Shown here piece by piece: positions 24,043 to 43,024 of a stretch of 64,000 nucleotides of DNA. Made by a program: the position numbers and the translations under genes. Source of the stretch: Streptomyces rapamycinicus NRRL 5491. Lineage in GTDB: Bacteria > Actinomycetota > Actinomycetes > Streptomycetales > Streptomycetaceae. The notes below the pieces were generated by a model. It was not told the origin of the DNA, did no database searches, and was given only the letters and a program-made list of their open reading frames with translations. The stretch covers positions 186,001-250,000 of the forward strand of contig NZ_CP085193.1 of assembly GCF_024298965.1 (NCBI RefSeq), given 5' to 3'. The stretch's first letter is position 1; each line of letters begins with the position of its first letter.

Positions 24043-24051
24043 CGTGATGGG

Positions 24052-24080: not shown

Positions 24081-24116
24081 TGCCTTGGGTGCACTTCTTG
24101 AAACACCTCGGAAACC

Positions 24117-24594: not shown

Positions 24595-24603
24595 GGTGGT
24601 TGC

Positions 24604-25260
24604 CTAGAACTGAGTGAAGGACTTCCAGACCTCTCCGGGAACCCAGGCCTTGGAGCCGCTGTCACCTCCGACCCCGTCCTGGGGAGCGGCGATGTGGCCT
24701 TCGTCGAACGCGGCCCACGCGACCGGATGCCCGGCCGAACACCCCGCGTAGGTGGTGACTGTGTGCGTTCGGCTGCCCTGCGCCGGCTCGGGCGGGTTCT
24801 GTCCGGCGCAGCCGTTGTTCCTGACGAACTTGTCCCGCATGGTCCGTCCGCCGGAGATTCCGAGCACTCCGTCCCTGATACCGTGCACCCCGAGGTAGGC
24901 GATGGGCTGGGTGCCACCGCCGCATCCGCTGAGCTGTCCGCCGGAGTGGACCGCGACCGCGCGGAAGACCGTCGTCCGGGCACACGCCAGCACGTAGGTC
25001 GTGGCGCCGCCGTAGCTGAATCCCACGGCGAAGCGCCGTGAGGTGTCGACGCAGAGCGCTCCCTCGATCTGGCTGATCATGTTGTCGACGAAAGTCACGT
25101 CTTCACCACCGGAATTGCCCCAGCCGTTGTTGAGACCCTGGAGCGCGACGAAGATGGTGCTGTTGTTCGCCAGCCGCTGGAGCCCGTAGTAGGCCCAGGT
25201 GCCGGTTTCCACCGTTCGCCCCGTTGCGACATCGGTGGCGGTGCCGCCGGTCCGAGCCGA
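24604..25260 (-). pseudogene. CE1 (feruloyl/acetylxylan) esterase, N-terminus deleted
   Basis: The minus frame reads the C-terminal two thirds of a PHB-depolymerase-like CE1 esterase: GGTATDVATGRTVETGTWAY, IFVALQGLNNGW, DVTFVDNMI, then the nucleophile elbow FAVGFSYGGATTYVLAC (Ser in GFSYGG) and PVAWAAFDEGHIAAP with the catalytic His. A GTG at 25212 would give 202 residues, but the family normally starts about 60 residues earlier, and the signal peptide and oxyanion strand are missing. The deletion joins it to the truncated xylanase gene about 25 bases upstream. It probably deacylated xylan. Confidence 0.7.
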
Positions 25261-25284
25261 TGGCTTCGACGATCAGCTGGAGCT

Positions 25285-28138
<2,854 letters not shown>

Positions 28139-28403
28139 GGAGGGTCGCTCTCTCTCGTTGTGGTCGGGGCGGCGGGCCGCACATGGGCGCAGGCAGCCCT
28201 TCGGCGAGAAACAGAACACCTGGGGAGCGGTGGCCCACCGGATGCGGATGCATGAGGAAACTCCCTGAGTCGGCTGGGGCACAGCTACCGCGATGCCACC
28301 GGTGTCCCTTGGAGCGCGGCACGATGACGCATGAACACATCGCCGGGTACGGCTTTCAGCGGTGATCTGTGGGGCCGACACAGACCTGCCCGTCCGACGG
28401 ATA

Positions 28404-28417
28404 TTCGATATATCGAA
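28404..28417. promoter_or_regulatory. 14-base perfect palindrome, putative operator of the GH43 gene
   Basis: TTCGATATATCGAA lies between the collapsed lacI gene and the GH43 gene. On the minus strand a TTGTCC -35-like element 17 bases upstream would place the -10 inside the palindrome. The start codon is 265 bases away, so the leader would be long. The most likely former ligand is the adjacent LacI-type protein; this is inference from position. Confidence 0.5.
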
Positions 28418-28587
28418 CGGTAATCGGATTCTCGGACAAGCATGGATGATAGACGGGCGACGAGAGGCGTCAACACCTCTGGCGCCGACGAGCCCCACGA
28501 ATACCGGCCAAGACCGTACGAGGCGGGGAAGTCGGAGCGGCACGGGGCTCCCGGCGTGTGGACGGCGGCCGGTTCTTCGCCTGTCGT

Positions 28588-28935
28588 TCAGCCGCTGGTG
28601 CCGCGGTGCGGGCCGGTGCTTTCGCGGACGATGAGAGTGGGCTCGTCGCAAGGGTCGGGAGCGGGTGCCGCGAGATCGAGCAACCGGTGCAACAGCCCGA
28701 AGCAGGTGCGGCCGAGTCCCCCGAAGTCGAGGCGGACCATGGTCAGCGCGGGGGGCGAGGAAGGCCGCGACGGGTACGTCGTCGAAACCGGCCACGCTCA
28801 GGTCGCCTGGAATGCGCCGTGGAGCCATGCCCGTTGATCACACGGGAGACCATCTGGTACGAGACACCCGCTACCCGTGCGACGTCGCAGATGGTTACGG
28901 TGGGGGCGCCCGCGCTGTCAGGAGTGGTGAGCATC
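28588..28935 (-). pseudogene. LacI-family regulator with large internal deletion
   Basis: From ATG 28935 the frame gives an intact LacI HTH, TVTICDVARVAGVSYQMVSR then VINGHG, and then directly and out of frame the C-terminal end of the same family, IPGDLSVAGFDDVPVAAFLAP. After a further slip it continues as LTMVRLDFGGLGRTCFGLL and ends PTLIVREST plus a short tail at TGA 28588. About 220-240 residues of the effector domain are missing. Only the DNA-binding head could be made. It lies upstream of the GH43 gene and was probably its local regulator. Confidence 0.75.
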
Positions 28936-29377
28936 AGCCCGTGTGCCGACCCCGCGGAGCGCATGAGACCGGTCACTCACCTGTTCCTGGAAGCATGGTG
29001 GCGATCACCCCGCGTGAGCGCCGGGCCTCTGACCGGGCACGACCGGCCCGGAGAAATCGGCGCTGTGATGGCTCTTGACACTTCGGATTCCGTCGCCACA
29101 ATCATGCGGTGGTGTGACCGTTCACACATGGGTCAGGCGGCGCAGAACACGAAGTCCTGAGGCGCCTGGGGGTCGCCGCACCCCGACGCCCGCTGTTGGA
29201 CGGTTCCACGGTCGCCAGGGCCAGCGCCGTGAACGCCATCGTGATCAGCGGGTTCCAGGGCAGCGGCTGCTCAGCCCCGGAGCCGAGTGCCAGACCGCGT
29301 CGGAACGCACTGCCCTCCGGCGTCCTTGCGCCACGTCCGACTGACAGACGCGTGTTCTTCCTGGAGCAGGAGACTCC
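28936..29377. other. Intergenic region without recognisable gene
   Basis: Roughly 440 bases between the lacI relic and the divergent glycosidase stub. Frames on both strands have shadow composition; I see no conserved motif. Confidence 0.4.
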
Positions 29378-29690
29378 ATGCCCACCACGCCTGCCACCGC
29401 GCGCTCGCGAACTCCCGTGTGGCTCGCGGTCGCTGTCGTAGCCTCTCCCGCCGCGGCGACCGGTCCGGCGGCGACGCCGGCTCCGGCCGCCACGAGCGGC
29501 GGCACCCTTGTCGTCGACGCGGATACCGTCGTGCGCCCGGTGACCCGGGTCGGGTCCGGAAGCCTCTACGGCCTCAAGGCCGCGGCCGACTCGTCGGCGT
29601 CCGTACTGACACCGCTGCGTCTCAACCAGCTCCGGCAACTCCCGCCCGGACCCGAGCACCGCCCGAACGGCTCACCCGCTGACTGTTCCC
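29378..29690 (+). pseudogene. Secreted glycoside hydrolase (GH39-type), N-terminal stub
   Basis: ATG 29378 starts a signal peptide (TPVWLAVAVVASPAAATG) followed by TLVVDADTVVRPVTRVGSGS, LYGLKAA and then LRLNQLRQLPPGPEHRPNG. This resembles the opening strand and first loop of large secreted Streptomyces GH39-like enzymes. Only about 100 residues exist; at 29690-29700 the sequence becomes leuC-like. The catalytic barrel is absent. The join is a deletion or rearrangement endpoint. Confidence 0.55.
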
Positions 29691-29700
29691 GCTTCTCTGC

Positions 29701-30172
29701 GTGGACCTGAGCGCCAAGAGCAGCCACGTGGAACCCGACGAGGTCACCGAGGCGTTCGTGCGCACCCTGCCGTACGACCTGCCGCGCGGTGACGGCGGCG
29801 AGGCCGCGACCGTACTGCGGTACGAGGTGAGCGATGTGGTGCCCCAGGTCGCCTGCCTGCCGACGGTCGGCAACGCCAAGGCCGTCTCGGAACATCGTGC
29901 CGTCGAGCCGCGAGGTGTTCGCGCAGACCGTGCGGGAGAGTCTGGTGCTCGGGCTGCACGAGGCCGACGCCACGTGGTTCCCGCCGAGCACCGTCTTCAA
30001 CCGGGCCATCAACATGGGCGCGATGGCGGCGGGCGAGACCATGATCTCCATCCGCACCCGCAACTTGACCGGCCGCAACGGCAGCGCCCAGGCCGAGATG
30101 TGCCTGGCGTCCGCGCAGACCGTGGCGGCGTCGGCCGTGGCGGGCGAGATCGCCGGGAGGAATACCCGGTGA
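29701..30172 (+). pseudogene. LeuC/homoaconitase-like large subunit, truncated with internal deletion
   Basis: The first frame (29701-29880) reads DLSAKSSHVEPDEVTEAFV and DVVPQVACLPTVGNAKAV, a mid-protein part of 3-isopropylmalate dehydratase-type enzymes. Then, in another frame, it jumps to VPSSREVFAQTVRESLVLGL, STVFNRAINMGAMAAGE, TRNLTGRNGSAQAEMCLASA and the C-terminal TVAASAVAGEI. The N-terminal ~200 residues and about 100 internal residues, including part of the Fe-S and substrate site, are gone. The stop overlaps the leuD-like GTG (GTGA), the original operon junction. Dead as an enzyme. Confidence 0.7.
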
Positions 30173-30586
30173 GGTTCGAGGGCAAGAGCTCGACGTTCGG
30201 GGACAACATCCCGACGGACCGGCTCGCCGCGGGCGATATCGTGGTGAGCGGACGGCACGTCGGCCAGTCGTCCGGCCGCGCCATCGCGACGAAGGCGTTC
30301 AAGAGCACCGGCATCGCCTGTGTGGTCGCCGAGTCCTTCGCCCGCACCTTCTACCGCAACTGCTTCGAGGTGGGACTGCCCGCCATCGAGGTGCCCGGCA
30401 TCCAGGACCTGGTGAACCGGGGCGAGGTGCTCCCCGTCGACCTCGCGGCCGGCGAGTTGGTCACCACCACGACGGGCGCGCGGGCCACCGGCTCGCCCAC
30501 GGACCCGTGTCTGATCGACATGCTGGAGACCGACGGCCTGATCGCAGCTCGCGGCGAAGCGCCCGGAGCTGTTCGGCACCGGGTGA
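30169..30586 (+). pseudogene. LeuD-like aconitase-family small subunit, frameshift at the end
   Basis: GTG 30169 follows a GGAGG box. The swivel domain is nearly complete: STFGDNIPTDRLAAGDIVVS, GRHVGQSSGRAIATKAFKST and FARTFYRNCFEVGLPAIEVP. The expected C-terminus (LAAKRPELFGTG, stop at 30584-30586) is in another frame after a one-base slip near 30546. As sequenced, the frame therefore continues without a stop into the LysR gene. With its large subunit deleted it cannot form an active dehydratase. Confidence 0.7.
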
Positions 30587-30726
30587 GGACGCCGTCGGCC
30601 CGCCGTCGACCCGGCACCGCGGCGGCGGACCGAAGGCCGGCGGCCGCCGGGACGGCCCCGGCCGGCCGGACGGCCCGGAATGGAGGATGGAAAGAGCCCG
30701 CGTGCCTGCGGCAGAATCCCGAGCCC

Positions 30727-31710
30727 ATGAGCCCACGGCAGTCCCGCCCCACACACCCCACGCACCCCACGCACCCCACGCACCTCGCGAACCTCGACCT
30801 CAACCTTCTGGTGACGCTCCGAGCGCTGCTGCGCGAGCGGAACGTCACCCGGGCCGCCCGGAACCTCGGCGTCACCCAGCCCGCCGTCAGCGCAGCACTG
30901 TCCCGGCTGCGCCGGCACTTCGGGGACGAGCTGCTCGCCCGGGCACACGGCGCCTACGTCCTGACGCCGCTCGCCGCGCAGCTGGCCGGGCAGGTCGAGA
31001 CGGTGTGCGCGGCCACCGAAAGGCTCTTCGCCACCGGCAGGGCGTTCGACCCCGCGACCACCGAACGGGGGTTCACCCTGCTGATGGCCGACTACCCGGC
31101 GACGGTCCTGGGCCCCCCGCTGTCCCGGCTGTTCGACCACGAGGCGCCCCATGCGGCGCTCCACCTCCAGCTCATCAGGGAGACCCTGGGCAGTGGCGCG
31201 GGCGACGCGATCCGGCTCGTCGACGCCATGGTCTCCCCGCCGCTCGGCCACTTCCGCACCCCGGGGGTCGAGTCGGCTCCGCTCTTCCACGACCGGTGGG
31301 TCTGCGTCGCGTCCGCCGACAATCCGCTGTGCGAGGCCGAGTCGTTCGGCATCGCGGACCTGGCACGGCTGCCGTGGGTGGTGCCCTACCACCGGGACGA
31401 GGGCTACCCGTCGGCCGCTCCGGCGACCCGGCAGCTGACCGCCCTGGGCATCCGGCCACGCATCGCCGTACGCGTGGAGAGCTACCGGGCCGTACCCGAC
31501 TTCATCACCGGAACGCGGCGGGTGGCGCTCGTTCCGGAGCGGCTCGCCGCACCCATCGCGTCCGCGCACGGGCTGCGCACGCTCACCTGCCCGGTACCGC
31601 TCGATCCGCTGGAAGAGCATCTCTGGTGGGACGCGAGCCACGACGAGGACCCGGCACACAGCTGGCTGCGCGACCTGATGGCCCGGGCCGCGGCCTGCCT
31701 CGGAGCATAA
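30727..31710 (+). CDS. LysR-family transcriptional regulator
   Basis: A 327-residue LysR protein: HTH LDLNLLVTLRALLRERNVTR followed by ARNLGVTQPAVSAALSRLRR, then the two-lobed effector domain. The effector domain resembles NodD/LinR-type members (ERGFTLLMADYPATVLGPPL, DAMVSPPLGHFRTPG). ATG 30727 starts a short Pro-His-Thr linker made of three exact 9-base repeats. It precedes, in the same direction, the transporter-dehydratase cluster and is its likely activator. The leuD-like frame runs into it without a stop, so read-through may affect its translation. Confidence 0.88.
   Translation: MSPRQSRPTHPTHPTHPTHLANLDLNLLVTLRALLRERNVTRAARNLGVTQPAVSAALSRLRRHFGDELLARAHGAYVLTPLAAQLAGQVETVCAATERLFATGRAFDPATTERGFTLLMADYPATVLGPPLSRLFDHEAPHAALHLQLIRETLGSGAGDAIRLVDAMVSPPLGHFRTPGVESAPLFHDRWVCVASADNPLCEAESFGIADLARLPWVVPYHRDEGYPSAAPATRQLTALGIRPRIAVRVESYRAVPDFITGTRRVALVPERLAAPIASAHGLRTLTCPVPLDPLEEHLWWDASHDEDPAHSWLRDLMARAAACLGA
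30754..30780 (+). repeat. Three tandem 9-base repeats encoding His-Pro-Thr
   Basis: CACCCCACG is repeated three times exactly, in frame, at the N-terminus of the LysR gene, encoding (HPT)3. Such repeats vary in number by slippage without changing the frame, so the linker length may differ between strains. Confidence 0.75.
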
Positions 31711-31917
31711 ACACCGTTGATGCCGCCCAGTCGAACGCTCTATTGACCTGGCCATTCCCTCCGGTGAAGCGGGCTGCCTACGGTGCGGGACACGCGATGA
31801 GAGCCGCGTCGCGGCACAGCCCCCTCCCCCAGGAGCCCTCATGCCCCATGCCCTGACAGAGCTGCGGTCGTCACCGGCGTCCCCATCATGGCCGACTTCA
31901 ACGGCGAGGAGACGGCC

Positions 31918-33339
31918 ATGAGCGCCACCCGACCCGTCGTGGAAGTAGCCCCGATCGTCGAGCGCCAGCGTGCGAGCCGCCACTGGCTGCTGATGTACGC
32001 CGTCTGCTGTCTGATCACCTTTCTCGACGGCTTCGACTTCCAGATCCTGTCGTTCGCCGCCACCTACATCCGCAAGGACTTCGGGTTCACCGGGACCCAG
32101 CTCGGCACCCTGGCCACGGTCGGTCTCTTCGGCACCATGATCGGCGCGCTGATCATGGGTTATCTGGCGGACCGGATCGGACGCCGTCCCACCATCGTCG
32201 CGTCGGTCGCCGGTTTCGGCCTCTTCATGCTCGGTTTCGCCTATGCGGACACCTACGCCCACCTGTTTGCCCTGCGGTTCGTGTCCGGGCTCTTCCTCGG
32301 CGGGGTACTCCCACTGACCTGGGCCCTGGCGGCCGAGTACGCGCCGAAGCGGTTCCGGGTGACCGCCGTGTCCATCATCATGGTCGGCTACACGCTCGGC
32401 GGCGCCGCCGGTGGTCCCGTCTCCAACTGGCTGATCCCCGAGTACGGCTGGCGATCGGTGTTCGTCGTCGGCGGCGTCTGCTCCCTGCTCACCGTCCTCG
32501 CGGTGCTGCCGCTGGTGCCCGAGTCGGTGAAGTTCCTGGTGCTGAAGGCCCGCCCCGGCAGCGATGAGCGCGTTTCCCGCATCCTGCGCCGCCTCCAGCC
32601 GGGCCTGTCCATCGAGCCCGGGACCCGCTTCACCACCGAGGCCCAGGAGCAGGCGCACTCGGGGAAGCGGTTCACCCCCACCCAGCTCTTCCTTGGCCAC
32701 CTCGCCGCCATCACACCCCTGCTGTGGCTGGTCTACCTCCTCTCCTCGGCGCTGATCTACTTCCTGGTTTTCTGGACACCGATGATCAACGAACAGATGG
32801 GGTTCAGCGTGAGCGCGGCCGCCACCATCGCCGCCCTGGCGAGCGTCGCGGGCGCCGTGGCGCAGCTGTTCATCAGCCGGTTCGTGGACCGCAAGGGGGC
32901 GGGCATCATCCTGTGGATGCCGCTCGCGGCCGTCGTCTGCATGCTGGCACTGGGCACGGGAGTTCTCGGCCCGGCCGTCTACGTCGCCTTCGTCATCGGC
33001 GCCAAGATGTTCGTCAACGGCGGTCATGGCGGTATCACCAGCATCGCCGGCACCTTCTATCCGACGGGCATCCGCGCCAACGGCGCCGCCTGGGCCTCCT
33101 CGGTCGCCAAGGTCGGCGCCATGGTCGGCCCCTGGCTCGGCGGCGTCATCCTAGACGCCGGTCTCGGGGCACACGGCGCGTTCACCGTGTTCGCGGCCTG
33201 CCCGGCCGTGATGGTGCTGGTGCTGTTCGTGCTCGGCCGGGTCCAGCGCCGGCTGCCGGCCGACGCGGAGGGAGCGCTGTCCGCGGCGGCAGCCCCCACG
33301 ACCGGCGTGGCCCCGGTGAAGACGGCGGCCCCCTCCTGA
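31918..33339 (+). CDS. MFS transporter, aromatic/organic acid:H+ symporter (AAHS) type
   Basis: The preferred start is ATG 31918, behind GAGGAGACGG; an in-frame ATG at 31888 lacks a site. The 473-residue protein has 12 membrane helices. TM1 carries DGFDFQ, the acidic motif of acid:proton symporters; the loop after TM2 has GYLADRIGRRP, and GRRP-like signature and PESVKFLV follow in the usual places. Family members take up aromatic or small hydroxy-acids. It is the first structural gene of the cluster with the IlvD, FAD and AcnX enzymes, 52 bases before the dehydratase, so it probably imports their substrate. Confidence 0.88.
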   Translation: MSATRPVVEVAPIVERQRASRHWLLMYAVCCLITFLDGFDFQILSFAATYIRKDFGFTGTQLGTLATVGLFGTMIGALIMGYLADRIGRRPTIVASVAGFGLFMLGFAYADTYAHLFALRFVSGLFLGGVLPLTWALAAEYAPKRFRVTAVSIIMVGYTLGGAAGGPVSNWLIPEYGWRSVFVVGGVCSLLTVLAVLPLVPESVKFLVLKARPGSDERVSRILRRLQPGLSIEPGTRFTTEAQEQAHSGKRFTPTQLFLGHLAAITPLLWLVYLLSSALIYFLVFWTPMINEQMGFSVSAAATIAALASVAGAVAQLFISRFVDRKGAGIILWMPLAAVVCMLALGTGVLGPAVYVAFVIGAKMFVNGGHGGITSIAGTFYPTGIRANGAAWASSVAKVGAMVGPWLGGVILDAGLGAHGAFTVFAACPAVMVLVLFVLGRVQRRLPADAEGALSAAAAPTTGVAPVKTAAPS

Positions 33340-33391
33340 CCGGCGCCTCCGCCACAGAAGCGACCACGAAGAACGAGGAAGGAGCCAAGGG

Positions 33392-35086
33392 ATGTCCACC
33401 GAGCCGCGCAGCAATCATCCGGTCGGGTCGTCTCGCTGGGCGACGACGCGTACGCAGTGGAAGGCGCTGGGCTACGACGACGAGGAGATCCGCCGGCCCA
33501 AGATCGCCATCGTCAACTCCTCTTCCGGGCTCGCGCCGTGCTTCGCCCATCTCGACGAGGTCGCGGAGGCCGTCCGCCGGTCGGTGTACGACGCCGGCGG
33601 GCTGGCCTTCGAGATCCGCACCGTCGCGCCGACCGACTTCATCATGGCCGCCGGCCGGGGTGGCGGCTATGTGCTCTCGGGCCGCGACCTGGTGTCCTAC
33701 GACATCGAGGCGGTTGTCGAGGGCGCGCGGCTCGACGGGATGATCTGCCTCGCGTCGTGCGACAAGACGACGCCCGGCCAGCTGATGGCGGCCGCGCGGA
33801 CCGACGTCCCCACCGTGATCGTCGCCTGCGGCTATCAGAGCTGCGGTGTCCTCGACAACGGCCGCCGCGTCGACATCGAGGAGGTCTTCGCCGATGCCGG
33901 CAAGCTCGCCGCGGGCGCCATCAGCTTCGACGACCTCTGCCGGATGTCCGACCGCGCCATCACCGGCCCCGGCGTCTGCCAGGGGATGGGCACCGCCAAC
34001 ACCATGCACATCGTCGCCGAGGCGCTCGGCATGGCGCTGCCCGGCTCGGCCCCCACCCAGGCCAACAGCGAGACGATGTGGGCGGCCGCGCGCGCCGCGG
34101 CCCCGGTCGTCATGGCGGCCGTCGAGGCAGACCGGCGCCCCAGCACGGTGATGACGCCCGCCGCGTTCCGCAACGCGGTGACGGCGGTCATCGCGGTCAG
34201 CGGCTCGATCAACGCGGTCAAGCATCTGGAGGCGATCGCCGCGGAGTCGCCGTACGACATCGACGTCCACCGGCTTTTCGAGGAGATCGGGCGGGAGGTC
34301 GGGCCGATAGCCGCGGTCCAGCCCAACGGGCCCACGACCATCGACGAGTTCGACGCCGCGGGCGGGGCCCGGGGCGTGCTCCGGCAACTCGGCGACAGGA
34401 TCGACGGCTCGGCCACGACGGTCTCGGGCACATCGATGGCCGAGGTCGTCGCCGGCGCCCCCGTCGACGCGGAGGTGATCCGCGCCGAGCCGATGCGCCC
34501 CGAGTCCACCATCGCCGTGATGCGCGGCAATCTCTGCCCCGACACCGGAATCGTGAAGCTGTCGGTCACAGAGCACCGGGCCCGCGCCTTCCGCGGTACG
34601 GCGCGCGTCTTCGAGTCCGCGCCTAAGGCCACCGAGGCGATCGAGCGCGGCGAGGTGCTGCCGGGCGAGGTCCTTGTGCTGCGGGGTCTTGGCGTCACCG
34701 GCACCCCAGGGATGGGCATGGCCTCCAGCGTGGTCTTCGCGCTGGCCGGCGCCGGCCTGAGCGAGCAGGTGGCGTTCGTGACCGACGGACAGCTCTCTGG
34801 CCTTGTCAACAAGGGCATCGTCGTCGGCGAGATCTCCCCGGAGGGAGGCGTGCCGGGCCCGCTGGGGACCGTCCGCACCGGTGACGAGATCGCGATCGAC
34901 GTCCCGAACCGGACCGTCGACCTCCTGGTCGACGACGAAGAGCTGAACCGCCGGATCGAGGCGTACGCCGAAACACGCGCGCCGCGGACCTGGCCGGCGC
35001 GGCCCGGCTCCTGGCTCGGTGTGTACGCCGGGGCCGTGGAGCCGCTCGACCGGGGCGCCACGCTGCGCCGGGCCGCCGCCAACTGA
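33392..35086 (+). CDS. IlvD/Edd-family Fe-S dehydratase
   Basis: A 564-residue dihydroxyacid/sugar-acid dehydratase behind an AAGGAGCC box. Signatures: IAIVNSSSGLAPCFAHLDEV, CLASCDKTTPGQLMAAART (Fe-S cysteine in CDKT), ACGYQSCGVLDNG, GVCQGMGTANTMHIVAEALG, and the C-terminal TDGQLSGLVNKGIVVGEISP active-site segment. The family dehydrates 2,3-dihydroxy acids or aldonates to 2-keto acids using an Fe-S cluster. It is probably not the biosynthetic IlvD, being set among transport and catabolic genes. Substrate unknown. Confidence 0.88.
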   Translation: MSTEPRSNHPVGSSRWATTRTQWKALGYDDEEIRRPKIAIVNSSSGLAPCFAHLDEVAEAVRRSVYDAGGLAFEIRTVAPTDFIMAAGRGGGYVLSGRDLVSYDIEAVVEGARLDGMICLASCDKTTPGQLMAAARTDVPTVIVACGYQSCGVLDNGRRVDIEEVFADAGKLAAGAISFDDLCRMSDRAITGPGVCQGMGTANTMHIVAEALGMALPGSAPTQANSETMWAAARAAAPVVMAAVEADRRPSTVMTPAAFRNAVTAVIAVSGSINAVKHLEAIAAESPYDIDVHRLFEEIGREVGPIAAVQPNGPTTIDEFDAAGGARGVLRQLGDRIDGSATTVSGTSMAEVVAGAPVDAEVIRAEPMRPESTIAVMRGNLCPDTGIVKLSVTEHRARAFRGTARVFESAPKATEAIERGEVLPGEVLVLRGLGVTGTPGMGMASSVVFALAGAGLSEQVAFVTDGQLSGLVNKGIVVGEISPEGGVPGPLGTVRTGDEIAIDVPNRTVDLLVDDEELNRRIEAYAETRAPRTWPARPGSWLGVYAGAVEPLDRGATLRRAAAN

Positions 35087-35115
35087 CCAACCATCCTCTG
35101 GGAGAAGACCACACC

Positions 35116-36404
35116 ATGCCCCACCCCCTGTCCGATCTCGTCGTCCACACGGTCACCAAGCCGGCCGACGCTCCAGCCGAACGGCTCGACGCCGACATCC
35201 TCGTCGTCGGCGCCGGCATCGCCGGGCTCTCGGCGGCCATCCAGGCGCGCCGTCTCGGCCGCGATGTCGTCCTTGTCGACGCGCTCCCGGTCCTCGGTGG
35301 CCAGTGCGTCAATTCGATGATCGGGCTCTTCTGCGGGATCTACGGCAACGCGCCCGACTACCGCCAGCTCACCCACGGGATCTTCGGCGAGCTCTTCGAG
35401 GCGCTGGAGAAGACCGACGACCTCCACTACAACCGCACCCACACCCAGACGGTGGCCTACGACGAGGTCGCCCTCGGCCGCTGGTTCGAGAACATCGTCG
35501 AGGAGCTCGGTATCCGGGTGGTCCTCGGCGCCTCCGTCAGCGGCGTCGGGGTCGAGGGCGGCGTCATCGAACGCGTCGACTTCGCCACTCGCTTCGGCCC
35601 GGTGAGCGTCACCGCCCGCGGTGTCGTCGACGCGACCGGCGACGCGGCCCTCGCCTGGGAGGCGGGGCTGCCCTGTCAGGTTCCCGACCGTACCGTCTGG
35701 GGCTCCCAGCAGATCCGGCTGGAGGGACTCGACGAGTCCGGCAAGCCGGAGCCCGCCGAGCTGGTGGCCCGGCTCGATGAAAAGGCCGCCGAGTACGGTC
35801 TGGTCCGCCGTGACGGGCTCGCGTTCTTCTTCCCGGGCCGCGACACGGCGGTGATGAACATGACCCACGTCGAGGCTCCCTTGGGCGCAGTTGATGCCGC
35901 CGACGCTCAGCTGCGGGCCGCGCGCAGGCGGACCGGGTCGTGGAGTTCCTCCGGCGGGAGTTCCCGGCGGCGTTCCGGAACGCCCGGGTCCGGGCCTTTG
36001 GATTCCCGGGGCGCCGACAGACCCGCTGGCTCGCCGCCGCCCACCAGCTGACCCTCGACGAGGTGCGGCAGGAGACGAAGTTCGAGGACGCCGTCGCCCG
36101 GACGGCCTGGCCGGTCGAGCTGCACGATCGGGTCGAGGGCTACGTATGGGAGACCTTCGGCCCTGACCACGTCCACTACGTCCCGCTGCGCAGCATGCTC
36201 TCGCCGCGGGCGCGCAACCTCGTGGCCGCGGGCCGCTGTGTCGACGGGGACGCCGCCGCGCTCTCCAGCGTCCGGGTGATGGGCCCGTGCTCGGCGATGG
36301 GCCTCGCCGCCGCGCACGCCCTCGATCTGACCCTGGGCGAGGACATCCACCAGGTCGATCTGACGGCGCTGCGCGACCGCGTCCGCGAGAACGTCGAGGG
36401 CTGA
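35116..36404 (+). pseudogene. FAD-dependent oxidoreductase (FAD_oxidored family), one apparent frameshift
   Basis: The first frame (ATG 35116) gives an FAD Rossmann fold, DILVVGAGIAGLSAAIQARR, then VLGGQCVNSMIGLFCGIYGN and GVVDATGDAALAWEAGLPC. Near 35915 the frame slips by one base. The second part continues as QADRVVEFLRREFPAAF, then RSMLSPRARNLVAAGRCVDG and VMGPCSAMGLAAAHALDL, closing the FAD domain at 36404. Combined length is about 430 residues, normal for the family. Conservation on both sides is excellent, so the slip may be a sequencing error. It is 29 bases after the dehydratase gene and 10 before aconitase X. Confidence 0.75.
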
Positions 36405-36414
36405 GGAGGAGTCG

Positions 36415-37716
36415 ATGGTCGCTCTGACCGACGAAGAGAAGGCCATGCGCGACGGCCGGGACGGCGATGCCGTCGCGGCGGCGATGGATCTGCTCATCAG
36501 ATATGCCGACGCACTCGGTGCCGCGCACCTGTGCGAGACCCGCAATGTGGCGGGGACCAACACCCAGCCCTCACCCGCCAAGACGAAGCTGTTCGAGGAG
36601 GGCGGTTGGTCGAAGGCGTTCGCGGTGATCAGCCTCGACTGCGACGACGACATCGAGGTGCCGCGGATGAAGGTGCCGACCTGCCAGCTCCAGCACGGCT
36701 TCGGCGACGACGCGCTGGGGATCATGCCGTACTCCGAGCGCAACATCGAGCTCCAGGCCGACGCCGAGTCGTTCTACAGCTCCAAGGGCGTCAACGTCCT
36801 GGCCACATGCACCCCGTACCAGGTGGGCAATCTGCCGACCTACGGCGAGCACATCGCCTGGATGGAGTCCTCGGCGGTGGTCTACGCCAACTCGGTCCTC
36901 GGCGCGCGCACCAACTGCGAAGGGGGCGCCTCGACCGGGTCGGCGAGCATCACGGGCCGGATCCCCTGCTGGGGCAACCACCTGGTGGAAAACCGCTACG
37001 GATCCCATCTGATCGAGTCCGGGCTGCGAATGACCGGCTTTCAGGACTGGGGCTTGTTCGGCTACTTCGTCGGCGACGCGGTTCAGGAAGCACGCCCGGT
37101 CATGGTCGGCGACCTCGGCCAGCCCGACCTGGCGGACCTGAAGCACTTCGGGGCGGCCGCCGCCTCCTCGGGCGGCGTCGAGATGTACCACATCCCGGGA
37201 CGCACCCCCGATGCGCCGACGCTGGAGGCGGCCTTCGGCCGCGCCGCCCCGCCCGGGCCGCTGCACTACGGCGAGGCGGAGCGCCGCGCGATCTACGACT
37301 CGCTCAACTCGATCGGGAACAGCGAAGATGTCGACTTCGTGCTGATTGGCTGCCCGCACGCCTCGCTCGAGCAGATCGGCCGGGTCGCGCGGGCGCTCGA
37401 AGACCGCACGCTGTCGGCCGGGACCGAATTGTGGGTCATGACGCCGCGCGCGCTGCGTGCCGTCTCGGACCGCAACGGGTGGACGGCCACCATCGAGCGC
37501 GCCGGGGGCCGGGTCCTGACCGACTCCTGCCCGGCCATGTCGCGGGCCGCGCCCACGGGCACCAAGGTGTTCGCCACGGACTCGGCCAAGCAGGCGCACT
37601 ACCTTCCGGCGATCCTCGGCATCGAAGCCTGGTTCGGCACCACCGAGGAGTGCGTCGATGCCGCCGTGACCGGTCGCTGGCGTGGCTCGCTGGCCCCCGC
37701 GGCGGTGGTCCGATGA
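36415..37716 (+). CDS. Aconitase X large (catalytic) subunit
   Basis: A 433-residue AcnX/DUF521 protein: LCETRNVAGTNTQPSPAKTK, then GVNVLATCTPYQVGNLPTYG with a cluster cysteine, NSVLGARTNCEGGASTGSAS with another, IGCPHASLEQIGRVARAL and TDSCPAMSRA near the end. Known members of this superfamily are cis-3-hydroxy-L-proline dehydratases and archaeal mevalonate-5-phosphate dehydratase; all are mononuclear-iron or Fe-S hydro-lyases needing a small partner. The ATG is preceded by GAGGAG and the stop overlaps the small-subunit start (ATGA), giving balanced synthesis. Actual substrate not predictable from sequence. Confidence 0.9.
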   Translation: MVALTDEEKAMRDGRDGDAVAAAMDLLIRYADALGAAHLCETRNVAGTNTQPSPAKTKLFEEGGWSKAFAVISLDCDDDIEVPRMKVPTCQLQHGFGDDALGIMPYSERNIELQADAESFYSSKGVNVLATCTPYQVGNLPTYGEHIAWMESSAVVYANSVLGARTNCEGGASTGSASITGRIPCWGNHLVENRYGSHLIESGLRMTGFQDWGLFGYFVGDAVQEARPVMVGDLGQPDLADLKHFGAAAASSGGVEMYHIPGRTPDAPTLEAAFGRAAPPGPLHYGEAERRAIYDSLNSIGNSEDVDFVLIGCPHASLEQIGRVARALEDRTLSAGTELWVMTPRALRAVSDRNGWTATIERAGGRVLTDSCPAMSRAAPTGTKVFATDSAKQAHYLPAILGIEAWFGTTEECVDAAVTGRWRGSLAPAAVVR

Positions 37717-38159
37717 CCGGCGCCGCGGGGACCCGGCTCGTGCTCCGCGGCCGCGGCATCGTCCCGGGGCGCGTGGCGGGCCGGGCCCTGGTCTCCCACG
37801 AGACCATCTCCGGCTGGGGCGGGATCGAGCCGGCCAGCGGCACCATCATCGAGCGCAGACACGAGCTCTACGGTATCTGCTTCACCGGCAAGGTGCTGGT
37901 CTTCCCGGGGGCGAAGGGTTCCTCGGGCTGGTCCGGCTTCTTCCAGTCGACCCGCCTGATGGGCACCGCTCCGCTGGCGATGGTCTTCACCAACCTGACC
38001 ACGAAGGCCGCCCTCGGCGCGATCGTGACCCGCGTCCCCACGGTGACCGAGTTCGAGGACGACCCGGTCGCCAAGATCGCGACCGGCGACCGGGTCGAGG
38101 TCGACGCCGACAACGGACTGGTGATCGTGTACGGACCGCGGCCAGGTCATCCGCGATGA
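37713..38159 (+). CDS. Aconitase X small (swivel) subunit, DUF126
   Basis: A 148-residue swivel domain matching the AcnX small subunit: LRGRGIVPGRVAGRALVS, CFTGKVLVFPGAKGSSGW (the conserved G-K-G-S-S loop) and TVTEFEDDPVAKIATGDRVE. It forms a two-chain enzyme with the product of the overlapping upstream gene, closing over the active site. It is the last gene of the cluster; no terminator hairpin is obvious directly after it. Confidence 0.9.
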   Translation: MTGAAGTRLVLRGRGIVPGRVAGRALVSHETISGWGGIEPASGTIIERRHELYGICFTGKVLVFPGAKGSSGWSGFFQSTRLMGTAPLAMVFTNLTTKAALGAIVTRVPTVTEFEDDPVAKIATGDRVEVDADNGLVIVYGPRPGHPR

Positions 38160-38180
38160 CGAGCCCGCGCTCCACGGCCG

Positions 38181-38369
38181 TCATCGAAGCGGCCCGCTCC
38201 CCGGCCCGTCCAACCACGGCACGTCCCAAGGTTTGCCGCCGCCGGGGTCCTCCAGGCCGACCGCACCCATCAGCCCGTCCGGGTGGAGAACCGGAGCACT
38301 CCGCGGGCGTGCCAGCAGGCGGAACGCCGCTTTGACCCCTCTGGGCCTGCCGCGACACCGCGGGGTCAC
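38181..38369 (-). pseudogene. Fragment resembling catalase-fold/phosphodiesterase-like Streptomyces proteins
   Basis: About 60 codons in good frame read KAAFRLLARPRSAPVLHPDG followed by PWDVPWLDGPGSG. This resembles the first strand-helix part of a heme-catalase-like family in Streptomyces that begins with a Leu-Ala-Arg helix, HPDG and PWLD-PG. The rest is missing. Recognition is from memory and weak. The following 300 bases (38370-38666) show nothing. Confidence 0.25.
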
Positions 38370-38666
38370 GCACCCGACCAGCCAGCTTCCCGCTCCGCAT
38401 CGCCGTCCCCGTCCTGGTTCTCGCCCACACGCTGTGACGGCGTGGTCCGGGATGCTTCCGCCAGCCAGTCTGCTCTGGATCGCTGTCCGTCCCGTTGGAT
38501 GCGGAGCCTTCCACCTGTGACGGCGTGTTCTCGCTGACGAGCGGCTCCTGTCGGGTTCAAGTACTCCAGCCCGGTTTCGCGATCTTGTCGCGGTCCCGGC
38601 TGGGAACGGGCATGGCCACCGCGTGATCTATGTGGACTCCTGAAGTACCAGGCCCATACCACCACA

Positions 38667-38748
38667 TTGCCTGGCCGCGCGATCCCGTGTGCGCAGCGCT
38701 GCCGCTGCCGCGACGTGCGCTGCGCACGCCCGGCTCATGGCCAGGCAA
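38667..38748 (-). terminator. Nested stem-loops at the end of the GH3 gene
   Basis: Outer stem TTGCCTGGCC (38667-38676) pairs with GGCCAGGCAA (38739-38748), the latter including the GH3 stop region. Inside it GTGCGCAGCGC (38689-38699) pairs with GCGCTGCGCAC (38717-38727). Both are perfect. It should terminate the minus-strand sugar operon and protect its 3' end. Confidence 0.65.
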
Positions 38749-41116
38749 CCGGCTCCTGCCCGAACGTGGCGTGCAAGCGCCGCGTGTGATCCACGTGGCG
38801 CTCGGCTCCGGTCAACGTGACCCTGGCCGTCAGGCGCGGATCCGCGCTGGAGGCGGCCAACCGCACCTCCAGCTCGCCCGGTTCGACGACGCGCCGACCG
38901 TCGCGTCCGGTGAAGGAAGCGAGGTCGGCCGGGACCGTGACACGGACGCGGCGGGCCTCGCCCGGCTTCAGTTCGACGCGGGTGTAGCCGACGAGGCGCT
39001 GCACCGGCTGGACGACGGAGGCGACCGGGTCATGCAGATAGAGCTGGACGACCTCGGTTCCGGATCGCCCGCCTGAGTTTCGGACGGTGAAGGTGAGGGT
39101 GAACTCGCCGTCCGTGGGGGCCTCCTGGGCGTCCAGGGTCAGGTCCGCCCAGTCGAACCGCGTATAGGACAGGCCGTGGCCGAAGGCGAACGCCGGGGTC
39201 GGGTCGATGTTGGACACCTCGCTGGCGTGCGCGAGCCGCGCCCCGAGGTACGTGGCCGGCTGGGAACCCGGACCGCGCGGCACGCTGACCGGGAGACGTC
39301 CGGAGGGATTGACGCGGCCGCTGAGCACCCCGGCGATCGCGTGCGTGCCCTCCTCCCCCGGGAAGAAGGACTGCACGATCGCAGCGGACTCCTCCACAGC
39401 GCGGCCGAGGGCGTACGGCCGTCCCGCGAGCAGCACGGTGACCACGGGTGTCTCCAGGTCGAGCAGGGTGTCGAGCAGGTGCTGCTGCGCACCGGGCAGC
39501 AGCAGCGCCTCGGCGTCGCATCCCTCACCGCTGGTGCCCCGCCCGAAGAGCCCGGCGCGGTCGCCGAGCACCACGAGGGCGATGTCGGCCTCGCGTGCCA
39601 CCTGGGCGGCCTCGCGGATGCCGGAGGGATCTCCGTCGTCGATTCCGGTGCCGCGGGCGACCGTGATCTCGGCGTCGGGGAACTCGGCGGCGAGAGTGTC
39701 GCGCAGCGTGGGCAGTTCGATGCCGAGTGGGGTCCCGGGGTGGCGGACGCCGATGTGCTGAGGGAAGGAGTAGCAGCCCAGCACGGCGGTGGGCTCGTCG
39801 GCGTTGGGGCCGAGCAGGGCGATGCGGCGCGGCCTCGCGAGCGGCAGGGCGCCGTCATTGCTCAGCAGCACGACCGCTTCCTCGGCGACCATGCGGGCCA
39901 GCGCGCGGTTCTCCGGACCGTCCAAGTCGATCCGGCCGCGCAAGGCTGCCGGGTCGTCCAGGCCGGCCCCGTCGAGCGCGGCCGGTACGGGGTTCCAGTC
40001 CGGGTCGAGCAGGCCGAGCGTCGTCTTCTGCGTGAGTACCCGGCGCAGGGCGCGATCGACCAGCGCCTCCGGTATGCGGCCGTCGGCGACGGCCTCGGCC
40101 AGGGGTGCGCCGTACGTCTTGACGTTGGGCAGTTCGACGTCGATGCCCGCGTGCAGCGCCGTGCCGGCGGCGTCGGCCCAGTCGGCTGCGATGCCGTGCA
40201 GGGTCTTCAGGAAGGCGATGGCGAAGTAGTCGGCGACGACAGTACCGTCGAAGCCCCATGTGTCGCGCAGTAGCCCGGTGAGCAGATCCTCGTCGGCCGC
40301 GGAGGGCATGCCGTCGGTGTCGGTGTAGGCGTTCATCACCGACCGGGCGCCGCCTTCACGGATCGCCATCTCGAAGGGAGGCAGCAGAACGTCGGCGCGT
40401 TCACGCGGGCCCACGGAGGAGGGGGCGAGGTTGCGACCGGCGCGGGAGGCCGAGTAGCCGACGAAATGCTTGAGGGTGGCGACGATCCCGGCGGACTCAA
40501 GGCCCTGCACGTATGCCGTCCCGATGGTGCCGACGAGGTACGGGTCCTCGCCGATGGTCTCCTCGACCCGGCCCCAGCGGGCGTCGCGCACAACATCCAG
40601 GACAGGCGCGAGTCCCTGGTGGACGCCGACGGCACGCATGTCGTGGCCGATGGCGGCGCCCATGCGCCGCACCATGTCCGGGTCAAAGGTGGCGCCCCAG
40701 GACAGCGGAACGGGGTAGGCCGTCGCCCCCCAGGCGGCGAAGCCGGCCAGACACTCGTCATGCGCGAGAGCGGGGATGCCGAACCGGTTCGTGGCGGCGA
40801 TACGGCTCTGGGTGCGGGCCAGGGAGAGCGCACCCAGGGCGGGGTCGACGGGGACCGTGCCGAAGGGCCGGGTCAGCTGGCCCAGTCCGGTGGGCAGGAG
40901 GGCGTCGAGATCGACGGCCTCCTCCATGGCGTGCTGATGGGGTGCCACTTCACCGCCCTGGTCGGAGGCGCCCACCCACACTCCGTACAGTTGGGCGGTC
41001 TTCTCCTGAAGGGTCATCGCGTCGATCAGGGCGTCGACTCTCGCGGTGACGGAAACGGTGGGGTCGTTCCAGAGGGAGATCTCGGGGGTGTTCTCGACGG
41101 CCACGTTGGCGTTCAC
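38735..41116 (-). CDS. GH3 beta-glucosidase/beta-xylosidase
   Basis: GTG 41116 follows GGGAGGAAA and gives 793 residues. The GH3 N-terminal barrel has GLAPVLDVVRDARWGRVEET, TLKHFVGYSASRAGRN (substrate Lys-His) and the nucleophile Asp in GTVVADYFAI. The C-terminal alpha/beta sandwich holds IALLGPNADEP, ALVVLGDRAG and FFPGEEGTHAIAGVLSGRVN; a fibronectin-III-like domain ends the protein. No signal peptide, so it is an intracellular exo-glycosidase acting on sugars imported by the transporter encoded directly upstream. Its GTG overlaps the TGA of a vestigial permease tail. Confidence 0.9.
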   Translation of the reverse strand: MNANVAVENTPEISLWNDPTVSVTARVDALIDAMTLQEKTAQLYGVWVGASDQGGEVAPHQHAMEEAVDLDALLPTGLGQLTRPFGTVPVDPALGALSLARTQSRIAATNRFGIPALAHDECLAGFAAWGATAYPVPLSWGATFDPDMVRRMGAAIGHDMRAVGVHQGLAPVLDVVRDARWGRVEETIGEDPYLVGTIGTAYVQGLESAGIVATLKHFVGYSASRAGRNLAPSSVGPRERADVLLPPFEMAIREGGARSVMNAYTDTDGMPSAADEDLLTGLLRDTWGFDGTVVADYFAIAFLKTLHGIAADWADAAGTALHAGIDVELPNVKTYGAPLAEAVADGRIPEALVDRALRRVLTQKTTLGLLDPDWNPVPAALDGAGLDDPAALRGRIDLDGPENRALARMVAEEAVVLLSNDGALPLARPRRIALLGPNADEPTAVLGCYSFPQHIGVRHPGTPLGIELPTLRDTLAAEFPDAEITVARGTGIDDGDPSGIREAAQVAREADIALVVLGDRAGLFGRGTSGEGCDAEALLLPGAQQHLLDTLLDLETPVVTVLLAGRPYALGRAVEESAAIVQSFFPGEEGTHAIAGVLSGRVNPSGRLPVSVPRGPGSQPATYLGARLAHASEVSNIDPTPAFAFGHGLSYTRFDWADLTLDAQEAPTDGEFTLTFTVRNSGGRSGTEVVQLYLHDPVASVVQPVQRLVGYTRVELKPGEARRVRVTVPADLASFTGRDGRRVVEPGELEVRLAASSADPRLTARVTLTGAERHVDHTRRLHATFGQEPVAWP

Positions 41117-41184
41117 TTTCCTCCCACGCCCATCAGACCCTTGACCAGGGCGCGACGGGCGAACAGGTAGACGAGCAGTACAGC
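41113..41184 (-). pseudogene. Vestigial C-terminus of a MalG-type permease
   Basis: The minus strand just before the GH3 start reads AVLLVYLFARRALVKGLMGV, then GGK and TGA at 41115-41113, overlapping the GH3 GTG. This is the end of a MalG-type permease, but the complete permease gene upstream already ends at 41225 with a different C-terminus. The piece is therefore the tail of a second, lost permease that was once coupled to the GH3 gene. Confidence 0.6.
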
Positions 41185-41224
41185 CGGCCACCGGCCACAG
41201 CGCCGGCGCCGGCGTCGGCGCCGA

Positions 41225-42121
41225 TCAACGGCTGAATCCGGCGGTCAGACCGCTCAGCAGCTGGCGGCGGCCGAACGCGTACAGGACCAGGACAGGCAGT
41301 GTGGTGAGGACGACGGCGGCGAGAACGGCAGGGACATTGACCCCGTACTGGCCCTGGAAGGTCCACAGTGCGAGCGGCAGGGTCCGGCGGTCAGGGCTCT
41401 GAGTGAGGACCAGCGGCAGCAGGAATCCGTTCCAGATGGTCAGTGCGTTGAAGATGGTCACGGTGAGGATGGCCGGTCGGGTGAGCGGTGCCGCCAGCCG
41501 CCACAGTGTCGTCCATTCGGTGGCGCCGTCGACCCGCATCGAGTCGAACAGTTCTTTGGGCACGTCGCGGATGAAGTTGGCGAGCACCAGCACCGAGAGC
41601 GGGATGGCGAAGGCGATCGACGGAAGGATCAGCGCCAGCAGACTGTCGTACAGACGCAGTTTGATGATGATCAGGTACACCGGGATCACCGTCGCCTGCA
41701 ACGGGATGGCCAGACCCGTGAGGAACAATCCGTTCATCGCACGCAGGACCCGCATGCGCCAACCACGTACGATCGCGTAGGCGGCCATGAAGGAGAACAC
41801 GACCGCCGGCACCACGGCGCCGGCGGTGACCACGACGCTGTTCACGAAGTAGCGAAGGAAGTCGGACTCGATGACCAGCCGGTAGTTGTCCAGTGTGGGG
41901 TCGCCCGAAGGCACCAGCGGGTTGCTCGCGTAGTAGCGGCTCTGGGCCTTGAGGCTGGTGATGAGGGTCCAGTACAGGGGTACGGCGACGACGACGAGCC
42001 AGAGCCACCCGGCCAGGCCGCCGGCCCAGTTGTGCCGGCGGGCCGCCTGACGGGAGTGGCGTTGCCGCTCACGGTGGGTGCCCTTCCGCGGTCGTCGCGG
42101 CTCGGTCAGCGTGGTGGACAC
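41225..42121 (-). CDS. Second permease half, alternative separate start
   Basis: A GTG at 42121 with GAGGGGG eight bases upstream could initiate the MalG-type half (298 residues) independently. A TGA at 42125-42123 exists in another frame exactly where the first permease would be expected to end, suggesting that the two genes once overlapped normally and a frameshift removed the stop. Both the fusion and the separate chain could be made. Confidence 0.5.
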   Translation of the reverse strand: MSTTLTEPRRPRKGTHRERQRHSRQAARRHNWAGGLAGWLWLVVVAVPLYWTLITSLKAQSRYYASNPLVPSGDPTLDNYRLVIESDFLRYFVNSVVVTAGAVVPAVVFSFMAAYAIVRGWRMRVLRAMNGLFLTGLAIPLQATVIPVYLIIIKLRLYDSLLALILPSIAFAIPLSVLVLANFIRDVPKELFDSMRVDGATEWTTLWRLAAPLTRPAILTVTIFNALTIWNGFLLPLVLTQSPDRRTLPLALWTFQGQYGVNVPAVLAAVVLTTLPVLVLYAFGRRQLLSGLTAGFSR

Positions 42122-43024
42122 GTCAGGCCCCCTCGAGTTGGCTCGCACCGGCGTCCCGGCCCCGAGCCGGCGCAGCAGCAGGGCGAGGGCCAGACCCACC
42201 AGGACCAGGATGACCGCGATGGCGCTGGCCGGTCCCATCAAGCTGGCCTGGAATCCCCGCTTGTACATGTCCAGTGCGAGGACCCGGGTGGCGTCTCCGG
42301 GGCCGCCCCCGGTCAGGACGAAGATGAGGTCGAAGAAGGTCAGCGACCCGACCACCATCAGCGTGGACGAGGTGATGATGGTGTATTTCAGCTGAGGCAG
42401 CGTGATGCTGAAGAACTGCCGGATGCGTCCGGCTCCGTCCAACTGCGCGGCCTCGTAAAGGGACTTCGGAATCTGCTGGACGCCACCCTGGTAGATCAGT
42501 GAGTGGAACGGGACGAACTGCCAGGAGACGACGAAGATGACGACCGCGAACGCGAGCCCGGGCCGCCCCAGCCAGTCCTGGCTGAGCACCTGGAGCTTCA
42601 GCCCGGCACCGAGCCCGAAGTTGGGGTCCAGCAGGGCCTTGTACGCGATCGCGATCGCCGCGGAGCTGAGCGTCAGCGGGATGAAGTACACCACGCCCAG
42701 CACCCCACGGTAGCGCTGGCGGCCGGCCAGGAACGTGCCGAGCAGAATACTCAGTGGAGTCTGAACGGCCCAGGACACGGCCATCACCAGGAACGTCACC
42801 CAGAGGGCGTGCGGCAGCCCGGGGTCGGTGAGCACCGCACGCCAGCTGGTCAGCCCCGACGGGTGGATGGCGCCGATCCCGTCCCACGTGGTGAAGCTCA
42901 GCGCGAAGACACCGACGAGCGGGATCACGGCGAAGCCGACGAAGACCACCAGCGCCGGCGCCGCCAGCCACGGCAGGATGCCGCGCGGTTCGCGACGCGG
43001 CGGATGGCCGGTGAGTGAGCTCAT
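41225..43024 (-). CDS. Fused MalF-MalG carbohydrate ABC permease (in-frame, no stop between halves)
   Basis: From ATG 43024 one uninterrupted frame of 599 residues encodes both CUT1 permeases. The first half has ILPWLAAPALVVFVGFAVIP, six helices and EAA loop YEAAQLDGAGRIRQFFSITL, ending LLLRRLGAGTP. A basic linker of about 45 residues follows, then the second half starts GLAGWLWLVVVAVPLYWTLI and contains the MalG-type EAA-equivalent FDSMRVDGATEWTTLWRLAA. Normally these are separate chains. ATG 43024 overlaps the binding-protein stop. Import of an oligosaccharide for the GH3 enzyme is the obvious role. Confidence 0.8.
   Translation of the reverse strand: MSSLTGHPPRREPRGILPWLAAPALVVFVGFAVIPLVGVFALSFTTWDGIGAIHPSGLTSWRAVLTDPGLPHALWVTFLVMAVSWAVQTPLSILLGTFLAGRQRYRGVLGVVYFIPLTLSSAAIAIAYKALLDPNFGLGAGLKLQVLSQDWLGRPGLAFAVVIFVVSWQFVPFHSLIYQGGVQQIPKSLYEAAQLDGAGRIRQFFSITLPQLKYTIITSSTLMVVGSLTFFDLIFVLTGGGPGDATRVLALDMYKRGFQASLMGPASAIAVILVLVGLALALLLRRLGAGTPVRANSRGPDVSTTLTEPRRPRKGTHRERQRHSRQAARRHNWAGGLAGWLWLVVVAVPLYWTLITSLKAQSRYYASNPLVPSGDPTLDNYRLVIESDFLRYFVNSVVVTAGAVVPAVVFSFMAAYAIVRGWRMRVLRAMNGLFLTGLAIPLQATVIPVYLIIIKLRLYDSLLALILPSIAFAIPLSVLVLANFIRDVPKELFDSMRVDGATEWTTLWRLAAPLTRPAILTVTIFNALTIWNGFLLPLVLTQSPDRRTLPLALWTFQGQYGVNVPAVLAAVVLTTLPVLVLYAFGRRQLLSGLTAGFSR

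Follow-up and report, generated by a model that had tools for sequence, protein, structure and literature searches.

Organization of the gene cluster

The DNA analysed here is a window of 64,000 nucleotides, bases 186,001-250,000 of the single 12.47-Mb contig of Streptomyces rapamycinicus NRRL 5491, to which all coordinates below refer; it lies on the chromosome arm (0.19-0.25 Mb of 12.47 Mb). It holds a plus-strand cluster of six genes, in which both subunits of aconitase X (AcnX) stand beside a FAD_oxidored flavoprotein, a deviant IlvD/Edd dehydratase, an importer of the MFS type and a LysR-family regulator. The regulator gene occupies 30727..31710, with its start set at the ATG of 30727, and is followed by the MFS gene (31918..33339), the IlvD/Edd gene (33392..35086; placed in a deviant subfamily by an active-site alignment), the FAD gene in two parts (35116..35916, with the GxGxxG dinucleotide site, and 35916..36404, in another frame), and the genes for the large subunit (AcnX-L, 36415..37716) and the small, swivel subunit (AcnX-S, 37713..38159) of aconitase X. 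The families of all six genes and their strand agree with a first-pass annotation made from the sequence alone, and are backed by Pfam (HTH_1 and LysR_substrate; MFS_1; ILVD_EDD_N and ILV_EDD_C; FAD_oxidored, PF12831; AcnX, PF04412; AcnX_swivel_put, PF01989). The importer had been named an acid:H+ symporter, and its best NCBIfam match is indeed the aromatic acid/H+ symporter model TIGR00895; its 341.1 bits lie under the cut-off of 418.55, and it is therefore called AAHS-like here. The S. rapamycinicus genome carries one copy of AcnX and six IlvD/Edd genes.

The genes from MFS to AcnX are tightly packed, as described earlier, with gaps of 52 (MFS-IlvD), 29 (IlvD-FAD) and 10 bases (FAD-AcnX-L) as read off the sequence; this packing does not extend to the regulator, whose stop codon is 207 bases from the MFS start. 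An ATGA overlap had been reported after the MFS start. Between cluster genes, such an overlap joins the two AcnX subunits (37713-37716), and the earlier report may have meant a possible 26-codon leader frame (31841-31921, found by eye) that overlaps the MFS start at 31918 in the same way. The first residues of this leader frame are similar, by eye, to the start of the FAD protein. The MFS start at 31918 is preceded by GAGGAG, and the alternative start at 31888 has no such stretch.

The FAD gene, previously counted as one gene, is not a single open frame: the N-terminal part runs from 35116 to about 35916, where the frame is broken, and the C-terminal part continues in a different frame to 36404. 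The gene is one open frame in Streptomyces rugosispiralis (locus L029, 429 aa) and in Streptomyces sp. CB01635 (L030). The intact L029 copy scores 254 bits with PF12831 (cut-off 27), against 132.5 and 108.3 bits for the two window parts. A search of the S. rapamycinicus genome recovered these two pieces; all other matches were short and lay in the FAD fingerprint, and there was no second full-length match. The break falls within a short G-rich run, and either an assembly error or a recent loss is possible. In another locus (L044:15099-15914), a frame that lies opposite to the FAD gene and overlaps it (F033) had no Pfam or NCBIfam match and was treated as mis-called.

Conservation of the gene set

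A profile search of genome contigs was performed with an alignment of eight AcnX sequences, and the best 80 of at least 309 relatives were kept. Among these 80 loci, the small subunit was present in 79, FAD_oxidored in 74 and IlvD in 60; the sole locus without AcnX-S (L072) stops at the end of its contig. When only the 55 loci with at least 8 kb on each side were counted, FAD was found in 52, IlvD in 44 and both in 43. Ten AcnX loci from outside the group served as controls (L111-L120, 30-39% identity; in four of them one or both flanks are shorter than 8 kb), and neither FAD nor IlvD was matched in any of them at E 1e-6. FAD_oxidored and the two-subunit AcnX are thus a near-constant core, and the deviant IlvD/Edd protein is the usual third enzyme.

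The combination of genes recurs in other genomes, so that the lack of conservation named by the first-pass annotation as a refutation does not apply; its members come from Actinomycetota, Pseudomonadota and one acidobacterial metagenome-assembled genome. The order proposed at that time, IlvD-FAD-L-S, is one of several and was found in 11 of the 80 loci. The commonest is FAD-L-S-IlvD (30 loci), followed by FAD-L-S (17); FAD-IlvD-L-S accounts for seven, L-S with FAD and IlvD on the other strand for another seven, and other arrangements for eight, where all of these counts allow other genes in between. The nearest named locus among the relatives kept is that of S. rugosispiralis (L029), with 98% identity in AcnX. 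The window aligns with it from 30510 to 38200 on the plus strand at 96.2% identity over 7,694 columns, and the remainder of 24000-43000 gave no alignment at E 1e-10. The identity of this block, together with the recurrence of the gene set in many genomes, indicates more than chance association.

A tree of 75 AcnX rows separated the 67 rows of the group from all eight control rows with a support of 98/89; several branches are long and the deep joins are unsure. Most of the near-identical Variovorax rows, rows shorter than 380 aa and the controls L115 and L120 were left out of this tree. Across the 39 of the 80 loci used for the comparison, the protein distances of AcnX, IlvD and FAD correlated pairwise (r 0.60, 0.77 and 0.79; 0/999 permutations each).

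Co-occurrence was also examined genome-wide in a sample of 394 genomes of the class, in which AcnX presence was defined as at least 50% identity and IlvD was sought with a DNA pattern for DG[QH]x-S-GLV. Of the 8 genomes that carry this AcnX, 7 had the signature IlvD, against 0 of the remaining 386 (Fisher 3e-14). The pattern itself gave 33 matches in 29 of the 394 genomes, with serine, judged by the codon, at the base-Ser position in 11 and Thr, Trp or Arg in 22. Thirty loci were fetched from these matches, and tblastn at E 1e-8 identified seven as IlvD (G000, G153, G315, G321, G209, G102 and G200), all in the eight AcnX genomes; the remaining four Ser matches (G154, G235, G149 and G146) gave no IlvD match at this threshold, and the three matches without a fetched locus all have Thr at the base-Ser position. 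In the eighth AcnX genome (G152) the AcnX contig is only 7 kb long, and in G209 IlvD and AcnX are on different contigs. Among the 40 Streptomyces genomes in the draw, 2 carry this AcnX, and the Streptomyces rows stand at two places in the AcnX tree; both observations fit lateral transfer. The dN/dS values against L029 and L030 were 0.12-0.36 for LysR, MFS, IlvD, both FAD parts and AcnX-L.

The genes around the core were compared as well, by tblastn with representative proteins chosen as queries, so that the counts are lower bounds. An importer was present in at least 68 of the 80 loci and a LysR or IclR regulator in at least 66; where both flanks span 8 kb, each was present in at least 50 of 55. 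The type of importer varies by lineage: MFS, TctC-type with porin, NMT1-type ABC, branched-chain-type (LIV-type) ABC and TRAP DctM. A 368-aa protein near AcnX (F020, L046:5673-6776) had no Pfam or NCBIfam match; relatives of it stand near AcnX in the actinobacterial loci L024, L026, L039, L042, L044, L047, L049, L057, L061 and L087, mostly Microbacterium and Agromyces.

Upstream of the cluster, leftover leuC- and leuD-like genes had been noted before, and they are confirmed as decayed remnants on the plus strand. The first (29677..30171) is the C-terminal part only of a LeuC/HacA-like large subunit, in two frames, which show 71% and 65% identity with the second of the LeuC-like proteins in Amycolatopsis sp. 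2-2 (L048). The other (30172..30590) is a shortened LeuD/DmdB-like small subunit with 49% identity to the LeuD of L048 (393 bases aligned to 160 residues). In Amycolatopsis sp. 2-2 (L048:43-3010), three open genes, two for HacA/LeuC-like large subunits and one for a LeuD/DmdB-like small subunit, lie upstream of the same cluster. Among the loci searched for relatives of the remnants, L048 was the only one to have them, and in L029 a short remainder of the leuD end is left. In one lineage, the cluster may thus have included the leu-like genes, which do not belong to the general gene set. The block is flanked by minus-strand genes for xylan use, GH10 and GH43 on the left (25288-28828) and GH3 with ABC permease domains on the right (38738-43270).

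Active sites of the three enzymes

The residues of AcnX-L were compared with those of the archaeal TkAcnX, whose structure 7cnr is the top-scoring solved structure for this protein. Cys110, Cys283 and Cys342 of TkAcnX, at the [4Fe-4S] ligand positions, correspond to C132, C313 and C372 of the window protein, and Glu129, Ser130, Lys361 and Tyr365 correspond to E151, S152, K392 and Y396. All seven are invariant in 57 of 57 rows picked for diversity. The base serine of AcnX-S, S70 of the KGSSG motif in the window (Ser62 in the archaeal enzyme), does not vary among the 80 small subunits. The roles of the catalytic and ligand residues, including the hydroxyproline-specific Asp203 and Thr72, are taken from the passages of PMC8184944 used here, and the [4Fe-4S] cluster of ApPMDh is assigned to the same three cysteine positions in the corresponding part of PMC10040528.

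The residues that distinguish the known AcnX functions are changed in the cluster proteins. The position of the amine-binding Asp203 is Ala in 49, Cys in six, Val in one and Thr in one of the 57 rows, and Gly stands in place of Thr72 in all 80. No Asn equivalent to Asn79(L) of TkAcnX was seen at columns 89-94 in the 57 sequences, where the pairwise alignment is gappy. In the region of the phosphate contact Asn53(L), where the alignment is uncertain, Asn occurs at column 49 in 4 of 57 and at column 50 in 7 of 57. The single NCBIfam match to AcnX-L is the cis-3-hydroxy-L-proline (C3LHyp) dehydratase LhpI, with 211.3 of the 700 bits required (229.1 for a Variovorax homologue). A hydroxyproline route, which the first-pass annotation had named as an example of a known enzyme set that might account for every gene, was rejected on the replaced amine-binding residues and on this equivalog score, and a mevalonate-phosphate route was rejected on active-site residues, with no equivalent of Asn79 at the aligned columns. 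Proline racemase-like proteins, pyrroline-2-carboxylate reductase and D-hydroxyproline dehydrogenase were not among the matches of 40 neighbour-protein scans, in which no model-based search was aimed at them.

The cluster AcnX consists of two subunits and has neither full set of landmark residues, as is the case for types IIc-IIf, bacterial forms that are described as functionally unknown in the parts of PMC8184944 and PMC10040528 that concern us. Because the ligand and catalytic residues are kept, Asp203 and Thr72 are replaced and ApPMDh carries its cluster at the same cysteines, we infer that the protein is a putative [4Fe-4S] beta-hydroxy-carboxylate dehydratase, whose substrate would have no amine at C2. 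A second, partial AcnX-S-like stretch (57% identical) was observed between LysR and MFS in L030 (L030:5229-5471).

The IlvD proteins were aligned in 60 rows, comprising 57 of the 60 IlvD loci, the plasmid loci L109 and L110 and the window; L040, L080 and L088 were omitted as split, with a stop, or partial. Residues C50, C123, C196, D82, D124, K125 and S469 are invariant. On the other hand, the position of the Mg-ligand Glu, which is Glu463 in CcXyDHT and E524 by alignment number in the relevant parts of PMC5770437 and PMC9314677, respectively, is Met in 29, Gly in 26 and Leu in five (M443 in the window), where the proteobacterial rows have a one-residue alignment insertion beside it. In the TDGR motif (motif 2), Gln replaces the Arg in 36 rows and His in 24 (Q467 in the window). 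Residues 471-472 are LV, and Glu480 replaces the His/Tyr of the paralogues, in 60 of 60. The other five IlvD/Edd proteins of the S. rapamycinicus genome all keep both the Mg-ligand Glu and the motif Arg. The window protein reaches 428.4 of 618.15 bits for dihydroxy-acid dehydratase (DHAD, TIGR00110) and 306.5 of 882 bits for L-arabinonate dehydratase (NF009559), under the cut-off in both cases. The pairing of two unrelated hydro-lyase families, as proposed earlier, is conserved, with the qualification that this IlvD is no ordinary member of its family. Two IlvD/Edd paralogues of this genome (L138, G000:C1:2043300-2045800, and L139, 5504600-5507100) have Glu, Gly and Gly instead of the three Fe-S cysteines and keep the Mg-ligand residues and base Ser; they are apparently cluster-free relatives.

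The structure model of the FAD protein has a pLDDT (predicted local distance difference test) of 92.7 and a fold common to monooxygenases, reductases and amino-acid oxidases. Because it is shared across these enzymes, the fold names no reaction and excludes no fold family. NCBIfam TcuA models of tricarballylate-type FAD dehydrogenases match the N-terminal part in the dinucleotide fingerprint only, and the intact L029 copy gave no match at E 1e-10, so that this candidate was rejected.

Interpretation and comparison with known systems

The gene set is most likely an undescribed catabolic module. More specifically, we give a probability of about 60% to the reading that it is a LysR-controlled, laterally spread module for the breakdown of an imported hydroxylated carboxylic acid, probably poly-hydroxylated or branched, without an alpha-amino group. 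Importers of acid-carrying types across the lineages favour the uptake of an acid. In the proposed mechanism, AcnX would remove water from a beta-hydroxy carboxylate with its [4Fe-4S] cluster and the small-subunit serine as base, and the IlvD variant, with a three-cysteine site of the [2Fe-2S] type and an incomplete Mg site, would perform a second alpha,beta-elimination that gives a 2-oxo acid, as judged from the residues of both enzymes. The FAD enzyme may make or remove a C=C or C=O bond between these two steps. A full order, MFS uptake, FAD oxidation, AcnX dehydration, IlvD elimination and entry of the 2-oxo acid into central metabolism, is a guess that we consider unlikely to be correct as written. 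It is a tentative proposal, with the odds somewhat against it, that an enzyme derived from IlvD, with the Mg-ligand Glu and the motif Arg lost and Glu480 gained, has left the canonical Mg-assisted mechanism and works in tandem with a bacterial [4Fe-4S] AcnX of unknown class on one acid in a new catabolic pathway.

Several observations weigh against the catabolic module. The 80 loci were picked by AcnX similarity and 20 of them are named Variovorax, so they are not independent and the counts overstate their independence; the correlation of the protein distances may likewise come partly from shared ancestry. IlvD is missing in 20 of the 80 loci (in 11 of the 55 that have 8 kb on each side), and six lack FAD (L039, L068, L070, L075, L080 and L087, of which three end near AcnX), and therefore neither is strictly needed nearby. 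With the representative queries, tblastn found no importer in 12 and no regulator in 14 of the 80 loci. The IlvD signature was built from the cluster's own sequences, and a divergent, unlinked relative could escape it. In the window itself the FAD frame is broken, and dN/dS of AcnX-S is 0.75 against L029, with few differences (0.25 against L030). Finally, the substrate is not readable from gene context, and the putative enzyme roles rest on sequence.

In another explanation, the actual unit consists of FAD and AcnX. IlvD would then be one of several modules able to stand in for each other, the others being an amidohydrolase pair or a TauD-type dioxygenase, and all would supply one common intermediate from different starting acids. 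Amidohydrolase-2 genes occur in 7 of the 20 IlvD-lacking loci (L034, L035, L063, L066, L071, L082 and L085, all beside FAD-AcnX; 8 of 20 at a looser score) and in 0 of the 60 IlvD-bearing loci (Fisher 2e-5), on separate branches of the AcnX tree; in the actinobacterial loci alone the numbers are 5 of 14 and 0 of 35 (p 0.001). This distribution suggests alternative feeding modules, and TauD-type dioxygenases were found in L085, L103 and L110. However, the rows are related and some contigs short, L110 holds TauD and IlvD together, and 13 of the 20 IlvD-lacking loci have no amidohydrolase at the score used. We regard this explanation, which refines the catabolic module, as possible and somewhat short of an even chance.

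A further explanation concerns the S. rapamycinicus copy only and has no conflict with the general reading, namely that the cluster is decaying there and has no function left. The broken FAD frame and the truncated leuC and leuD remnants agree with decay, whereas the other cluster genes are open, their dN/dS values are well under 1 except for AcnX-S against L029, and a one-base length change in a short G run is a common assembly error too. Decay of this copy is possible, at somewhat less than an even chance.

It is unlikely that the cluster is a biosynthetic or detoxification module, whose enzymes would produce or alter a small acid, such as a natural-product building block, for export by the MFS protein. 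The window does lie on a chromosome arm, where accessory clusters of Streptomyces are located, and neither an aldolase nor a thiolase was among the neighbour proteins scanned. However, in other lineages the neighbouring genes encode importers that use binding proteins (TctC, TRAP DctM, NMT1 and LIV-type), which point to uptake, and domains of nonribosomal peptide synthetases and polyketide synthases were not among the neighbour proteins scanned, for which no model search was made. That AcnX has a known function, as a hydroxyproline or mevalonate-phosphate dehydratase, is improbable, since LhpI as the only NCBIfam match, 7cnr as the best structure and ligands like those of type IIb are outweighed by 211.3 of 700 bits, by the replacement of Asp203 and Thr72 and by the lack of an Asn at the columns aligned with Asn79.

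The gene set brings an AcnX, apparently of the IIc-IIf kind, together with a flavoprotein, a deviant IlvD and an acid importer, and it also occurs in named isolates, which makes its function a question testable by growth and by enzyme assays. If the IlvD-AcnX tandem with its altered mechanism were true, an AcnX IIc-f subclass would have a function for the first time and IlvD/Edd would gain a new type of hydro-lyase. An active altered IlvD would change the view of the catalytic needs in its family, which, according to the part of PMC9314677 used here, is of value in the production of higher alcohols and other compounds. Among the open-licence PMC papers listed on AcnX, none dealt with the AcnX-IlvD gene set, and neither of the known AcnX functions fits the active site.

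As to known systems, the cluster FAD protein, a FAD_oxidored (PF12831) flavoprotein, is similar in sequence to solved enzymes only at the FAD fingerprint, and no characterised relative was found in this comparison. The tricarballylate system TcuR-TcuA-TcuC combines, like the cluster, a LysR regulator, a FAD dehydrogenase and an MFS importer, which there feed an aconitase step; it is not known to include AcnX or IlvD. The hydroxyproline dehydratases are of the same family as the cluster AcnX, which has the base Ser, Glu, Lys and Tyr and, in 70 of 80, an equivalent of Trp35. It differs from them in that the window protein has Ala for Asp203 and Gly for Thr72, keeps the C313 ligand and does not have the second Cys of the CxC pair. 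AcnX of type IIb, the archaeal phosphomevalonate dehydratase (TkAcnX/ApPMDh), shares two subunits, the three Cys places and the catalytic residues with it, but the cluster AcnX has no Asn79 equivalent at the aligned columns, is bacterial and stands beside FAD_oxidored and IlvD. Similarly, DHAD and the L-arabinonate and D-xylonate dehydratases have the Pfam domains, the three Fe-S Cys, the CDKTTPG motif, D82 and the base Ser in common with the cluster IlvD, which is set apart by Met, Gly or Leu for the Mg Glu, Gln or His for the TDGR Arg, SGLV for SGxx, and Glu480.

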